Below are positions 42,079 through 54,699 of a stretch of 64,000 nt of DNA, in pieces. The translations under genes and the position numbers were made by a program. Below the pieces are notes generated by a model that was given only the letters and a program-made list of their open reading frames with translations, made no database searches and was not told where the DNA came from. The stretch comes from Thalassospiraceae bacterium LMO-JJ14 (GTDB lineage Bacteria; Pseudomonadota; Alphaproteobacteria; Rhodospirillales; Casp-alpha2): contig CP134604.1 in NCBI GenBank assembly GCA_021555105.2, positions 3,386,501 through 3,450,500 on the forward strand, in the 5' to 3' direction. Numbering within the stretch: position 1 is the first letter of the stretch; the number at the start of each line of letters is the position of its first letter.

Positions 42079-42573
42079 CTAGGGGCGTCGCTCGAGGCGC
42101 ACGAAACTGAAGGCCGGGCCGCCCGGCGTTTCCGCGGGATGGCGTTCGCGACGGGTTTCTTCCCATTCTTCCGGATCGATTTCCGGAAACAGGGTATCGC
42201 CGTCGATCACCGCATGGACTTCGGTCAGCTCGATCACGTCGGCATCGTCGAAGATTTCCGCGTAAATCTGCCCGCCGCCGATGATCATGGCTTTTTCGGC
42301 GCCGTCGTCGCGGCACAGATCAAGCGCACCATCAATGGTGCCGACCTTGTCCGCCCCTTCGAACGTAACATCCGGATTGCGCGTGATGACAATGTTGCGG
42401 CGCCCCGGCAGCGGAAACGGCAGGCTTTCCCACGTTCGCCGCCCCATGACCACCGGATGGCCCATGGTGACGCGCTTGAAATGCTTGAGATCGGCGGAGA
42501 TTTTCCACGGCAGGTCGCCGTCGCGGCCAATGACCCGGTTCTCAGACACGGCGACGACAAGAACGATTTCCAT
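42079..42573 (-). CDS. folA: Dihydrofolate reductase
   Basis: The 164-residue enzyme begins [23 protein letters not shown] with the substrate-site Trp, and has VMGRRTWESL and GGGQIYAE for NADPH binding. It regenerates tetrahydrofolate after thymidylate synthase; its start abuts the thyA stop at 42573, so the pair is co-translated. Confidence 0.97.
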   Translation of the reverse strand: MEIVLVVAVSENRVIGRDGDLPWKISADLKHFKRVTMGHPVVMGRRTWESLPFPLPGRRNIVITRNPDVTFEGADKVGTIDGALDLCRDDGAEKAMIIGGGQIYAEIFDDADVIELTEVHAVIDGDTLFPEIDPEEWEETRRERHPAETPGGPAFSFVRLERRP

Positions 42574-43367
42574 CAGACCGCGATCGGGGCTTTGATGTGC
42601 GGGTGGGATTCGTACCCTTCGAGGGTGAAATCTTCGTACTTGAACCCGGCAATGTCGGTGACGTCCGGGTTCAGGCGCATGGTCGGCAACGCAAGCGGTT
42701 CACGCGAAAGCTGCAGATCCGCCTGATCCAGGTGATTGGCATACAGATGCGCATCGCCCAGCGTGTGTACGAACACGCCCGGCTTCAGCCCCGTCACCTG
42801 CGCCATCATCATCAGCAACAGCGCATAGCTGGCGATGTTGAACGGCACCCCCAGAAAGACATCGCACGAACGCTGGTAAAGCTGGCAGTTCAAGCGCCCG
42901 TCCATAACCTGGAACTGGAACATGCAGTGGCACGGCGGCAGCGCCATGTCGTCGATGTCGGCCGGATTCCAGGCGCTGACGACCATGCGCCGCGAATTCG
43001 GCCGCTCGCGGATTTCGCGGATCACCCAGTCGATCTGATCGATGCTGCGCCCGTCCGGCGTCGCCCACGAGCGCCACTGGCGGCCGTACACCGGGCCAAG
43101 CTCGCCGTTCTCGTCGGCCCATTCGTCCCAGATCGAAACGCCGTGCTCGTTCAGGTACTTGATGTTGGTGTCGCCGTTCAGAAACCACAGCAGCTCGTGA
43201 ATGATCGACTTCAGGTGCAGTTTCTTAGTCGTCAGAATGGGAAAGCCGTCGGCCAGGTCGAATCGCATCTGATAGCCGAATACGGCCTGCGTGCCGGTGC
43301 CGGTGCGGTCGCCGCGGAAGGTGCCGGTGTCGCGAATGTGCCTGAGAAGATCGAGATACTGTTGCAT
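42573..43367 (-). CDS. thyA: Thymidylate synthase
   Basis: The 264-residue enzyme has the phosphate-binding RxRTGTGT-type start ([20 protein letters not shown]), the catalytic Cys in [10 protein letters not shown] and the dUMP-binding [20 protein letters not shown] stretch. It makes dTMP from dUMP using methylene-tetrahydrofolate, which folA recycles. It follows the glycosyltransferase gene by 9 nt. Confidence 0.98.
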
Positions 43368-43376
43368 GGGCGGATT

Positions 43377-44501
43377 TTACGCGCCCCCCGCGCGCCGTGC
43401 CAACACCTCGCGTGCCGCATCCAGCGCGCGCGCCGGCGTGATCTGCGTAAGGCAATGATATCGCCCGTTTTCCAGCGGATGAATACACTGCCCAAGGCAT
43501 CCGGCACAGTCGATGTCCGGCACCTCGAAGCGGACATTTTCGGGTGTCATCCGCGAATCATACGGCACGCTGTCGACGATGTGCGCGGCCGACGCCAGAC
43601 ACAGCGTCGGCGTCCCCACCCCCACCGCCAGATGCATGATCGAGGTATCGACGCTGACCGCCAGCGCCGCGCCGCGCAGAAGCGCCGCCTTGGTGCGCAG
43701 GTCGCTGACATCGACACGGACCCCCGTCATCGCCGCCAGCGCCGCATGCCGTGGCGCGCGCTCCAGGTCGTTCGGCCCCGCCGACAGGACGATGTCGTGG
43801 GTGCCCCGGAACGCCTCGGCAATGGCCATGAATACTTCGGGCGCGGCCTCGCGTTCGGCGATGGCGGAAAACGGATGCAACACGATGTGCGGGCGCGGGC
43901 CGGTGACGGCATCGGGCAGGCGCGCCGTATCGAAGCGGACCTTCGGTACAGGTGCTTTTTCGCCGCTGAGCGCGTTCGCCAGTTCCCACCAGCGGATCAA
44001 CCGGTGTGCCATTTGCGGATCGGGATCGACCCAGCGCGTGTACCAGTTCCTGTGCTTTTGCAGCGCCGTGTCGTGCTTGGGCCAGCTTCTGGGCGACAGT
44101 GCAGCGCGCTCGGTGGCGCCCGACGCCATGATCATCACGTCGTCGACCGTCGGCAGGCGCAGGTGATCGGTGCTGATCGCGCTACGGACGCCGAAATCGC
44201 GGATCTGGCGGCTGACGCCGATCCGGTACGCCGCGTTTTTGATGAAGCGGCGGTAATCGATGGGCATCATCCTGACCCGGTCGGGAAACAGGAAGCTCGC
44301 AAACCGGCTTTCGGCGCGGACCACCAGCGTCACGTCCTCGTCATCGGGGACCAGTGCCATGAAGCGTTCGGCCATCAGCGAGAACAGGATCGTGTCACCG
44401 AGCCCACCCGATGAGACCAGCAAAAGCCCGCGCTTTTCAGCCCTGGCCTTGGCGGCGATCCCGGCGATGATGTTGTCGGTGATTTTCTGGATGATGGACA
44501 G
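43377..44501 (-). CDS. Glycosyltransferase family 9 (heptosyltransferase-like)
   Basis: The protein of about 374 residues matches family 9 transferases: GGLGDTILFSLMAERF near the N-terminus, a central VLHPFSAIAERE sugar-nucleotide motif, and a C-terminal half with SVDTSIMHLAVGVGTPTL. It probably adds a heptose or related sugar to LPS core or another surface glycan. The coding frame extends well upstream of the first TTG (44421-44423), and a GGGGAGAGAG ribosome site points to a CTG start at 44499-44501, since no ATG, GTG or TTG lies between. A TTG start would remove about 26 residues and has no ribosome site. Confidence 0.82.
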   Translation of the reverse strand: MSIIQKITDNIIAGIAAKARAEKRGLLLVSSGGLGDTILFSLMAERFMALVPDDEDVTLVVRAESRFASFLFPDRVRMMPIDYRRFIKNAAYRIGVSRQIRDFGVRSAISTDHLRLPTVDDVMIMASGATERAALSPRSWPKHDTALQKHRNWYTRWVDPDPQMAHRLIRWWELANALSGEKAPVPKVRFDTARLPDAVTGPRPHIVLHPFSAIAEREAAPEVFMAIAEAFRGTHDIVLSAGPNDLERAPRHAALAAMTGVRVDVSDLRTKAALLRGAALAVSVDTSIMHLAVGVGTPTLCLASAAHIVDSVPYDSRMTPENVRFEVPDIDCAGCLGQCIHPLENGRYHCLTQITPARALDAAREVLARRAGGA

Positions 44502-44654: not shown

Positions 44655-44700
44655 GTTCATATTCCTAAGCACACTTCCCTGCGCCTATCCCCCTGTCCCC

Positions 44701-44729
44701 TTGCGAAAATGCGCCGTTAAGCGCATATT
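44701..44729 (+). promoter_or_regulatory. Promoter of the tmRNA gene
   Basis: TTGCGA (44701-44706) and CATATT (44724-44729) are spaced 17 bp, predicting transcription from about 44735, where the acceptor-half RNA begins. Confidence 0.6.
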
Positions 44730-44733
44730 AGCC

Positions 44734-45022
44734 GTGCTGGCTTGTCCAGCTATGGTGATAAACGCTTTTCGGAATAAGCGTTGCGGACCCGGGGGCGGTA
44801 CCCGGCACCTCCACCAAGTTTTCCTGTCCCGATACGGGGCAAGTTGATGGGGGTGAAACAGGATCGACGCGCGTAGTAAAGGTTAAGTTTTCACTCGGCA
44901 TGGTTCCGCCGTTACCGGGCCATTTTCACAAGTGCCAACGACAATCAAGCACTTGCAGTCGCGGCCTAACACGCCATAACGACTACGGGGTTCGGGGGGC
45001 ACCTGGCAACAGAAGCCCCCCA
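44734..45022 (+). ncRNA. ssrA: Circularly permuted two-piece tmRNA
   Basis: The acceptor half comes first and ends with a T arm (GGACCCGGGGGCGGTACCC) and CACCTCCACCA, the CCA at 44814-44816. A processed spacer of about 32 nt follows. The coding half starts at 44849 with GGGGGTGAAACAGGATCGAC, whose GGGGGTG pairs with the acceptor CACCTCC. The tag frame runs from resume codon GCC 44934-44936 to TAA 44967-44969 and encodes ANDNQALAVAA, giving the AA-ANDN...AVAA pattern of alphaproteobacterial tags once the tRNA-borne Ala is added. A hairpin GGGGGGC/GCCCCCC (44994-45021) closes the RNA. The permuted order is the known alphaproteobacterial form. Function: rescue of stalled ribosomes and tagging for ClpXP. 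Confidence 0.96.
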
Positions 45023-45117
45023 CTTTATTTGTCAAATCCCCTCTCCGTTTGACCGAGGTCAAGGCCCCGCCGCCATTGCGGTGCTAATTTCGATCAGGTT
45101 CAATCACGGAGGTCCCG

Positions 45118-45453
45118 ATGGACGTTCATACAGAAGATCACGGCCACATCGGCCACAATTCCCGGGACATCCCGATCATCGTCCGCGCCAAGATGTTCAA
45201 CTCGGTCCGCGCCGCCGACGGTGGGCCGCGCCTGCGCGATCTCGCCATGCAGGCGGGTGACACGCTGGCAGACCTGGTGCGCACGCTCGGCATCGAAAAA
45301 AGCGCGCTGTTCATCGTCTGGGCCAACGGCCGCGACGTCAGCAAACGGATGTGCGGCGAGATCAATCTGGACTACGTCATGCAGGACGGCGACGAAATCG
45401 CGCTGTCCGGCCCGATTCCGTATAGCTGGGGGTACGGCTCGCCGGTAGTATAA
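45118..45453 (+). CDS. Small beta-grasp-like (ThiS/MoaD-resembling) protein
   Basis: The 111-residue protein shows the order of a ubiquitin-like beta-grasp: IIVRAKMFNSVRAADGG, then GDTLADLVRTLGI, WANGRDV and MQDGDEIALSGPIP. This resembles ThiS/MoaD sulfur carriers. It lacks their C-terminal Gly-Gly and ends in YSWGYGSPVV instead, so carrier chemistry is unlikely unless it is processed. GGAGG lies 5 nt before the ATG. It sits between ssrA and sspB with short gaps; a link to tagging or proteolysis is only positional inference. Confidence 0.65.
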   Translation: MDVHTEDHGHIGHNSRDIPIIVRAKMFNSVRAADGGPRLRDLAMQAGDTLADLVRTLGIEKSALFIVWANGRDVSKRMCGEINLDYVMQDGDEIALSGPIPYSWGYGSPVV

Positions 45454-45512
45454 GTATCCGGCCTGTCCCATTCTGTCTTTAACCATCGGGGCGTTACGTC
45501 TACATTACCCCT

Positions 45513-46040
45513 ATGATAGACGAAGACAGCGATATCCTGAGATACGATCTGTGGATCGAAGACGCCCTTCGCGGCGTGATCCGCCGTTCGCTCACCACCA
45601 TCGAAGAGATGGGCCTTCCCGGCGACCATCATTTCTATATCACGTTCAGGACCGATCATCCGGACGTCAACATCGCCGACTGGCTCACCGCCGAATACCC
45701 GGAAGAAATGACCATCGTCCTGCAGCACCAGTTCGAGGGTCTGAGCGTCAGCGACGACGGCTTCACGATCAAGCTCCGCTTCGGCGGCCGGCCCGAGCAT
45801 CTGTCGATCCCGTTCGACGCCATCACCTCGTTCGCCGATCCGTCCGTCAGCTTCGGTCTGCAACTGAAGTCGGTCGATCTCGACGACGAGGACGAAGACG
45901 CAGACGAACTGACACCGGAAGAACTGGGCATCGACCCGGCGGCACGGCTGAACGATACCGGCATGGAAGATTCCACCGCGGACGATGACGACAAGAAAAC
46001 CGGCGAAGTCATCGCGCTGGACAGCTTCCGCAAAAAATAA
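45513..46040 (+). CDS. sspB: ClpXP adaptor SspB (alpha type)
   Basis: The 175-residue protein has the SspB core ([26 protein letters not shown] and [18 protein letters not shown]), a strand-rich peptide-binding region ([16 protein letters not shown]) and a long acidic linker ending in the short ClpX-binding tail ([12 protein letters not shown]). It binds the ssrA tag and tethers substrates to ClpX. The tmRNA gene encoding the tag lies 0.5 kb upstream on the same strand, an instructive linkage of tag and adaptor. Confidence 0.93.
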
Positions 46041-46090: not shown

Positions 46091-47719
<1,629 letters not shown>

Positions 47720-47852: not shown

Positions 47853-49257
<1,405 letters not shown>

Positions 49258-49268
<11 letters not shown>

Positions 49269-50065: not shown

Positions 50066-50803
50066 ATGGCAGGCGTCACCATCGTCACCGGCGGATCACG
50101 CGGCATCGGCGCTGCGACCGCGAAACTCGCCGCCAGCCACGGCGATGCGGTCTGCGTCAATTACGTGAGCGACAAGCAAGCCGCCGACGCCGTTGTCGCC
50201 GAAATCATCGCGGCAGGCGGCAAGGCCATCGCCGTCAAGGCCGACGCATCGAACGAGGCCGAGGTCGTGGCCATGTTCGAACAGGTCGACAAGGAACTCG
50301 GCCCCGTCACCGGGCTGGTCAACAACGCCGGCAGCAACGGCCGCTATTGCCGGGTGGAAGAGCTGGGCGCCGACGAGATCAGCCGGCTTCTGGACATCAA
50401 CATTACCGGGTGTTTCCTGTGTGCGCGCGAGGCGATCAAGCGCATGTCGACGAAACACGGCGGCAACGGGGGCGCCATCGTCAATGTATCGAGCCGCGCG
50501 GCGGGGACCGGCAACCCCGGTCTCGGCGTGCTCTATGCGACATCGAAAGGCGCCTTGAACTCGTTCAACATCGGCCTCAGCCAGGAAGTCGCGGGCGAAG
50601 GCATCCGCGTCAACGCCGTCTCGCCGGGCATGACCCGGACCGACATGCCGAGTGCGGAACGCATCCGCGAACAGGCCGCAAACATCCCCATAGGCCGCGT
50701 CGCCGAACCGCTTGAGATCGCCGAGGCGATCTGGTTCCTGCTCAGCGATGCCGCCAGCCATATCGCCGGCGCCAATATCCGGGTCACCGGCGGCAGACTT
50801 TAA
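50066..50803 (+). CDS. Short-chain dehydrogenase/reductase, copy 1
   Basis: The 245-residue SDR has TGGSRGIGAATA for NAD(P) binding, NNAG, the catalytic Ser (VNVSS) and YATSK Tyr-Lys. It is close to FabG-like oxidoreductases. The next gene is a close paralogue of the same length, so this is a recent tandem duplication. Its substrate cannot be assigned. GGGA precedes the ATG. Confidence 0.92.
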   Translation: MAGVTIVTGGSRGIGAATAKLAASHGDAVCVNYVSDKQAADAVVAEIIAAGGKAIAVKADASNEAEVVAMFEQVDKELGPVTGLVNNAGSNGRYCRVEELGADEISRLLDINITGCFLCAREAIKRMSTKHGGNGGAIVNVSSRAAGTGNPGLGVLYATSKGALNSFNIGLSQEVAGEGIRVNAVSPGMTRTDMPSAERIREQAANIPIGRVAEPLEIAEAIWFLLSDAASHIAGANIRVTGGRL

Positions 50804-50833: not shown

Positions 50834-51571
50834 ATGAGCGGTGTTACCATCGTCACCGGCGGATCGCGCGGCATCGGCGCTGCAACCGCGAAACTCGTCG
50901 CCAGCCACGGCGATGCCGTCTGCGTCAATTACGTGAACGACAAGCAAGCTGCCGACACCGTTGTCGCCGGGATCACCGCAGCGGGCGGCAAAGCCATCGC
51001 CGTCAAGGCGGATACCGCGAACGAGGCCGAGGTCGTGGCCATGTTCGAACAGGTCGACAAAGAACTCGGCCCCGTCACCGGGCTCGTCAACAATGCCGGC
51101 ATCAACGGCAACAGAAAACGGGTCGAGGAACTGACGCCCGGCGAAATCACCCAGCTTCTCGCCGTCAACGTGACGGGCTGCATGATCTGCGCGCGCGAAG
51201 CCATCAAGCGCATGTCGACGAAACATGGCGGCAAGGGCGGCGCCATCGTCAATGTCTCAAGCGGGTCGGCGAACCTGGGCAATCCGGGGATAGGCGTGCT
51301 GTATGCGACGTCCAAGGGGGCGCTGAATTCGTTTTCCATCGGGCTCAGCCAGGAAGTCGCCGCCGAGGGCATCCGCGTCAACGTCGTCGCGCCGGGGATG
51401 ACCCGCACCGATATGCCGGGCGAGGACAGGCTCAAGGCGCAGGCCGAGAAAATCCCCATGGGCCGTGTCGCCGAGCCGGAAGAGATCGCCGAGGCGATCT
51501 GGTTCCTGCTGTCCGACAAGGCCGGCTACATCGCCGGGGCCAACATCCGCGTCGGTGGCGGGCGTTTGTAA
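50834..51571 (+). CDS. Short-chain dehydrogenase/reductase, copy 2
   Basis: The 245-residue SDR shares long identical stretches with copy 1 (for example TIVTGGSRGIGAATAKL and EAEVVAMFEQVDKELG) and keeps the YATSK active site. The copies differ mainly around residues 105-125 and 160-165, near the substrate pocket, suggesting divergence in substrate use. Confidence 0.92.
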   Translation: MSGVTIVTGGSRGIGAATAKLVASHGDAVCVNYVNDKQAADTVVAGITAAGGKAIAVKADTANEAEVVAMFEQVDKELGPVTGLVNNAGINGNRKRVEELTPGEITQLLAVNVTGCMICAREAIKRMSTKHGGKGGAIVNVSSGSANLGNPGIGVLYATSKGALNSFSIGLSQEVAAEGIRVNVVAPGMTRTDMPGEDRLKAQAEKIPMGRVAEPEEIAEAIWFLLSDKAGYIAGANIRVGGGRL

Positions 51572-53832: not shown

Positions 53833-54699
53833 ATGACCACGCAATCCGTACTTCAGTTTTTCGAACGCTTCCCGAACGACGATGTTTGTTTGGAACACCT
53901 TTGGAACGTCCGCTTTGGCAATCAGGGCGAATGCCCGAAGTGCGCCAAGCCGAGCAAGTTCCATCGTGTTAAGAAGCGCCCGGTTTACGAATGCGCGTGG
54001 TGCGCTCACCAGATCAGCCCTATGGCCGGGACGCCGTTTGAGAAGTCCCGTACCCCGCTGCAAAAGTGGTTTTATGCTATGTACCTGTTCACCACGACGC
54101 GGCACGGTGTCAGCGCCAAGGAATTGCAGCGCCAGCTTTCCGTGACCTACAAGACGGCGTGGCGGATCGGCCACGAAATCCGCAAGTATATGGGCGACGT
54201 GGACGGCAACGCCCCGCTTGGCGGTGTTGGCCATGACGTTGAAGTCGATGAAACGCTGATCGGCGGTTCCGTCAAAGGCAAGGGTCAGGGTTACAAGGGC
54301 AACAAGACGTGTGTTGTCGGTATGCTTGAGCGTGGCGGCGAGCTTGTGACCAAGGTTGTCAGCGCCCGCGACAAGGTGTCCATGAAGGGCGTGATCCTCT
54401 CCAACGTGCTTCCGGGGTCCACGATCCAGACCGACGAATTTGGCGGCTACAAGGATATCGACCAGTCCGGTTACAACCACGTCAAGGTCAACCACAAGCT
54501 TGGCGAATACGCGACCAAGGACGGCGCGGGCGTCAACGGGATCGAAGCCTTCTGGGCGCAGTTGAAGCGTGGCATCAACGGTACTCACGTCCACGTCTCC
54601 CGTAAGCACCTGCCGAAGTACCTTGGCGAGTTCGAGTTCCGGTACAATCTCCGCAAGCGCCCGGACCTCATGCTTCCGGCCCTTTTGCAGGCGTTTTAG
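53833..54699 (+). CDS. IS1595-family (ISXO2-like) transposase
   Basis: The 288-residue transposase has an N-terminal zinc ribbon (CPKCAK...CAWC, about 38-62), a helix-turn-helix-like segment (SAKELQRQLSVTYKTAWRI) and the DDE-type ISXO2 core with VDETLIGGS, QTDEFGGY and NGIEAFWAQLKRG. It has the full length expected and no frameshift, so it is probably active. The ATG at 53833 has GGAGG 8 nt upstream. Confidence 0.95.
   Translation: MTTQSVLQFFERFPNDDVCLEHLWNVRFGNQGECPKCAKPSKFHRVKKRPVYECAWCAHQISPMAGTPFEKSRTPLQKWFYAMYLFTTTRHGVSAKELQRQLSVTYKTAWRIGHEIRKYMGDVDGNAPLGGVGHDVEVDETLIGGSVKGKGQGYKGNKTCVVGMLERGGELVTKVVSARDKVSMKGVILSNVLPGSTIQTDEFGGYKDIDQSGYNHVKVNHKLGEYATKDGAGVNGIEAFWAQLKRGINGTHVHVSRKHLPKYLGEFEFRYNLRKRPDLMLPALLQAF

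Follow-up and report, generated by a model that had tools for sequence, protein, structure and literature searches.

A MoaD/ThiS-like gene associated with tungsten aldehyde oxidoreductase lies at the conserved ssrA-sspB-fumA block of Alphaproteobacteria

The tmRNA gene (ssrA) of Thalassospiraceae bacterium LMO-JJ14 is separated from the gene for the ClpXP adaptor SspB (sspB) by a small gene, here called mid, and the arrangement is best explained as a conserved ssrA-sspB-fumA block beside a sporadic accessory gene of tungsten aldehyde oxidoreductase (AOR), which would help to assemble the tungsten cofactor or to insert it and have no role in trans-translation. We place the probability of this reading at roughly three in four. 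The window analysed here is a stretch of 64,000 nucleotides of contig CP134604.1, in which the locus comprises the following features:

42573..43367, minus strand: thyA, flanking synteny marker (PF00303)
43377..44423, minus strand: gene for a glycosyltransferase of family 9, next to ssrA on its upstream side and divergent from it (PF01075)
44697..45024, plus strand: ssrA, permuted (two-piece, predicted) tmRNA gene (Rfam RF01849 alpha_tmRNA, RF04321)
45118..45453, plus strand: mid, predicted 111-aa MoaD/ThiS-fold protein without C-terminal diglycine (family alignment, Pfam, AlphaFold2 model, PDB matches, profile match, AOR association)
45513..46040, plus strand: sspB, ClpXP adaptor SspB (PF04386, E 4.2e-46)
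46091..47719, plus strand: fumA, class I fumarase gene directly 3' of sspB (PF05681/PF05683)

The genes ssrA, mid and sspB lie head to tail, all on the plus strand and with short gaps, confirming the initial annotation of a tmRNA gene, a beta-grasp protein and SspB in one same-strand block, with coordinates agreeing to within a few bases. The Rfam alpha_tmRNA model matched ssrA at 267.2 bits against a cut-off of 50, as did the permuted tmRNA model RF04321 at 154.1 bits, and ARAGORN called the tmRNA gene at 44722-45060 with the stop-terminated tag frame ANDNQALAVAA*. The 3' end of ssrA carries a hairpin; near the gene there was no match to sigma-70-type promoters and no excess of terminator-like sites relative to shuffled sequences. 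The SspB of the window matched PF04386 over residues 15-166 at 157.3 bits (cut-off 27). Further along the window, the class I fumarase gene is adjoined by a class II fumarase gene (47853-49268, plus strand), followed by tandem short-chain dehydrogenase genes (50066-50803 and 50834-51571, plus strand) that are 81% identical and apparently the product of duplication, and by an IS1595/ISXO2-family transposase gene (53833-54699, plus strand; PF12762, PF12760).

Linkage of ssrA and sspB was assessed in a class sample of 144 alphaproteobacterial genomes that were at least 90% complete, of which 138 had a tmRNA match above cut-off and 136 had an sspB match; five tmRNA rows below cut-off were excluded from the linkage count. 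Among the 134 genomes with both genes, sspB was located within 300 bp downstream of ssrA on the same strand in 89 and within 5 kb in another 18, resulting in a same-strand total of 107/134. The two genes shared a contig at a greater distance or in some other placement in 8 of the 134 genomes, and were on separate contigs in the other 19, some of which are perhaps assembly breaks. At closer range, in a set of the window's genome plus the 20 closest of the genomes available, 15 had both tmRNA and sspB matches and, with the single exception of G016, all of these carried the two genes on one contig and strand (14/15). The fumarase gene fumA adjoined sspB in all 16 loci in which this was checked, including the window genome (the sspB locus L032 of G007 was left out). 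Linkage of ssrA and sspB is thus old and class-wide in Alphaproteobacteria, and ssrA-sspB-fumA is a conserved alphaproteobacterial block. The linkage fits co-regulation of the tag-encoding RNA with its adaptor, and the two genes may be co-transcribed; given the presence of a fumarase in the same block, adjacency alone is no proof of shared function. No description of the linkage was found in the literature by title or abstract opening, and it is not claimed as unreported; the available portion of a Caulobacter review (PMC8119881) does not mention it.

The ssrA and sspB of the window resemble those of other Alphaproteobacteria in having a permuted tmRNA, an adaptor of the SspB family and linkage between the two, and differ in the extra gene between them, which is shared by the window genome and one congener. 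Among the 14 linked pairs in the near genomes, those two genomes (G000, which is the window genome, and G001) have mid between ssrA and sspB, two others (G004 of the window's genus and G013 of another family) have it immediately 5' of ssrA, and the remaining 10 lack it at the site. No genus other than that of the window yielded the order ssrA-mid-sspB. A further genome, G477, also has mid directly upstream of ssrA, so that ssrA-adjacent copies occur in three families (f1, f2 and f169). Across the other wide ssrA-sspB intervals (300-5000 bp), mid was present in 0/17 genomes, and the idea of a third gene conserved at this position was rejected, as these 17 intervals hold genes that differ by lineage or have none called; no gene was called in the short interval of G120. 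Among the near genomes, G002 has its gap occupied by genes for a regulator of the MarR type and for a protein that matches no Pfam family. Conversely, of the 65 mid loci from named genomes, only two include ssrA, and these belong to the window's genus. These results establish that mid is not a component of the conserved ssrA-sspB linkage. Separately, three loci (L291, L292 and L293, from G160, G042 and G051) share one gene pair in the interval, judged by eye to encode a regulator of the ArsR type and a protein resembling cation-efflux proteins.

The initial annotation had taken the linkage as a sign of co-regulation and perhaps of a third component of tag-directed proteolysis; the class-wide counts are consistent with the first part, and the second is not supported. 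Such a component could be, for example, a ubiquitin-like protein that modulates SspB or ClpX and is co-regulated at ssrA, and the strand and short gaps of mid, its hydrophobic C-terminus, and the ability of beta-grasp proteins to act as adaptors (as described in the available part of PMC1949818) would all suit it, as would the position of mid beside ssrA in five genomes, of which G004, G013 and G477, with mid directly upstream, add a point in favour of the original suggestion. The absence of mid from most linked near pairs and from all 17 other wide intervals argues against this possibility, as do the confinement of the three-gene order to one genus, the rarity of ssrA among the named mid loci, and a strong association elsewhere with an unrelated pathway, that of tungsten AOR, described below. 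A role for mid in proteolysis therefore finds little support, and a third component of this kind is considered highly improbable.

To the Pfam ThiS family (PF02597) the window mid, taken alone, gave a sub-threshold match (17.5 bits against 22.5), and within the mid family the ThiS and Mut7-C ubiquitin families each matched 42 of 66 members at E up to 0.01. Profile-profile comparison by hhalign aligned mid with the diglycine-ending MoaD of AOR operons at a probability of 98.4%. The AlphaFold2 model of mid had a mean pLDDT of 80.6, with most of the tail below 50, and its top PDB matches were MoaD proteins at Z 9.7 and 9.6. Together these predictions support a beta-grasp fold for mid and its placement as a relative of MoaD and ThiS. 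By fold and homology mid resembles MoaD, the small subunit of molybdopterin synthase (6jbz, Z 9.7; 1fm0, Z 8.2), and it differs in its termini: a conserved N-terminal I-G-H-N-S and an invariant C-terminal tail of the type SGPVPYS(W/Y)GYGAPVV, conserved to its very end, with a terminal Gly-Gly in 0/75 family members. The dN/dS values of mid against two congeners were 0.19 and 0.10, indicating purifying selection and the behaviour of a real gene.

In the genome samples, where mid was counted only at E < 1e-20, strong matches were found in 5/387 class, 15/150 order and 2/397 phylum genomes. Matches not counted were one in G018 (E 9e-4), those in the samples between E 1e-3 and 1e-9, and a partial second match in G068 (E 2.3e-14). 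Several of the weak matches were GG-ending MoaD genes beside AOR (e.g. G000:C1:1825631), and for the others the E-value was the sole ground for exclusion. The survey of named genomes yielded the 65 mid loci referred to above, two of them from records labelled Chromatiales and Gammaproteobacteria. Mid is thus sporadic and, based on this patchy distribution and on its varied neighbours, probably laterally mobile. Among those neighbours, PqqD-like and radical-SAM genes lie near mid in L276, L278 and L282 (with Pfam matches for PqqD in L278 and for radical SAM in L276 only), which suggests a further link of mid with redox-cofactor synthesis. A Crp-like regulator lies beside mid in L078, L079, L088, L098, L104, L107 and L108, mostly from Hyphomicrobiaceae, and genes that by eye resemble nitric-oxide-reductase accessory genes are nearby in the same loci.

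The genomes that carry mid are, with few exceptions, genomes that carry AOR. An AOR gene (PF01314) was present in 61/65 named mid genomes (46/50 and 15/15 in the two sets), and two of the four without it are only 1.4 and 2.0 Mb and perhaps incomplete. In the class sample AOR was found in 5/5 mid genomes compared with 35/387 genomes overall (hypergeometric 4.6e-6, kinship ignored), and in the order sample in 15/15 compared with 69/150 (hypergeometric 3.5e-6, kinship likewise ignored); the class, order and named samples overlap, with G001 and G004, for example, being the same genomes as L050 and L051. These observations show that the mid subfamily travels with tungsten AOR. The converse does not hold, as a strong mid match is missing from 54 of the 69 order-sample genomes with AOR, and AOR is therefore not dependent on mid everywhere. 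Physical linkage was less frequent: an AOR gene was within 5 kb of mid at 15/65 named loci (that of L097 being a distant type, 30% identical) and in further order genomes, and at most mid loci AOR is not adjacent. Where the two are linked, the usual neighbour of mid, adjacent or divergent, is an operon of c5, MoaD-GG, FAD oxidoreductase, AOR and a 4Fe-4S protein. The window genome has its own AOR operon (L147: 4Fe-4S, AOR, FAD, MoaD-GG, c5), which is 1.6 Mb away and without mid, and all of its genes except c5 are supported by Pfam. The c5 protein (L147:11898-12197 and relatives) is approximately 98 aa long, has no Pfam match and accompanies MoaD-GG in AOR operons, with a terminal RGGG that is invariant in 9/9 aligned sequences; the possibility that c5 is another MoaD was discarded, as profile comparison gave a probability of 0.2% and no homology was seen.

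The homology of mid to MoaD raises the alternative of a normal sulphur carrier of the MoaD/ThiS type, in which cleavage of the tail would uncover a functional C-terminus. ThiF/MoeB-like and MobB genes, named by sequence reading, lie beside mid in L072, L094 and L103, which counts in favour of such a carrier. Against this, none of the 75 family members ends in diglycine, conservation of the tail runs through to its last residues, and complete AOR operons usually have a separate GG-ending MoaD. Cleavage of this kind is accordingly regarded as unlikely.

The two contexts of mid, at ssrA and at AOR, are joined in G477, where fumA, sspB, ssrA and mid occupy one strand, followed on the opposite strand by AOR and the FAD subunit and beyond these by thyA-dfrA, such that the AOR operon sits in a row with the mid-ssrA-sspB-fumA genes, between ssrA and thyA. 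In the window, thyA-dfrA and the glycosyltransferase gene flank the far side of ssrA. The SspB of G477 ends in the residues VIALDTFRKK, a candidate ClpX-binding tail. In the phylogeny, a single clade (support 100/99) unites the mids of G001 and G004 with that of the window; in a first tree, AOR-linked mids from Phaeospirillum and Magnetospirillum grouped with it (96/86). In a second, larger tree, to which 9 of the 15 order-sample mids were added (L249 being identical to L096), support (97/89) fell on the wider group and not on the fork itself; the partial L112 (66 aa) was omitted from alignment A2 and from both trees. The first tree seemed to split G013 from the window clade, but an AU test on the larger tree did not reject a single clade of ssrA-adjacent mids (p 0.40), and neither a single origin nor independent origins of the adjacency is claimed. 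Had mid arrived at ssrA more than once, this might point to a function behind the position.

The position at ssrA could also have arisen by chance or through tRNA and tmRNA flanks that receive mobile DNA, in which case location would be uninformative on function; the odds of this are judged to be about even, and it is compatible with a role in the AOR system. A tRNA or tmRNA gene lay within 500 bp of mid at 9/65 loci, compared with 24 of 748 other genes at those loci, suggesting that such flanks are somewhat favoured, with the limitation that the nine include near-identical pairs. Unrelated genes occupy the ssrA-sspB interval in other lineages, and tmRNA genes are described as frequent integration sites in the available text of PMC11915505. 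Arrival by chance or at a receptive flank leaves the association with AOR unexplained, and so complements an accessory role in that system without replacing it.

Small MoaD-resembling proteins have precedents in AOR systems. The AOR cluster of Aromatoleum includes the accessory genes aorD and aorE, the products of which resemble MoaD, are missing from the purified enzyme and are putative maturation factors, according to the accessible part of PMC6365974, and the recombinant enzyme had an activity of 4.5 U/mg when produced from aorABC compared with 16 from aorABCDE, as given in the portion available of PMC9295118. Compared with AorD and AorE (the latter likened by description), mid is usually divergent or away from the operon, lacks the diglycine and is additional to GG-MoaD and c5. 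WorX, a ThiS-like protein beside some class I tungsten oxidoreductases in a 2026 classification (PMC13328260, in its accessible part), is likewise small and encoded near such enzymes, a likeness of description and not of sequence; the description of WorX available there makes no mention of a mid-type tail or of ssrA.

The most likely explanation is therefore an accessory role for mid in tungsten-cofactor or AOR maturation, by analogy with these systems, and most likely no role in trans-translation. Under this explanation, an accessory gene of the AOR system would have come to lie at ssrA in the ancestor of the genus, and its product would be a MoaD-fold partner that helps to build the tungsten cofactor or to insert it. 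The lack of a diglycine makes sulphur carriage unlikely; mid may instead act as a docking or scaffold protein, using its invariant tail to bind a cofactor-synthesis enzyme or AOR subunit while carrying no sulphur. A more speculative version, considered a long shot, is that mid founds a group of MoaD-fold proteins that have lost sulphur transfer, in which the invariant tail serves as a plug or docking peptide for delivering the tungsten cofactor, or for gating it, during AOR maturation, and that the small hydrophobic C-terminus makes mid a regulated ClpXP substrate; if true of a gene found next to ssrA and SspB in three families, AOR maturation would be coupled to proteolysis.

For the Alphaproteobacteria as a class, the linkage of ssrA and sspB makes co-expression of tag and adaptor testable in any alphaproteobacterial model. 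For the AOR system, the cofactor assembly of which is poorly understood, the mid family represents a tail-altered MoaD subfamily and a candidate maturation factor. The locus also illustrates that three closely packed genes need not all serve one pathway.
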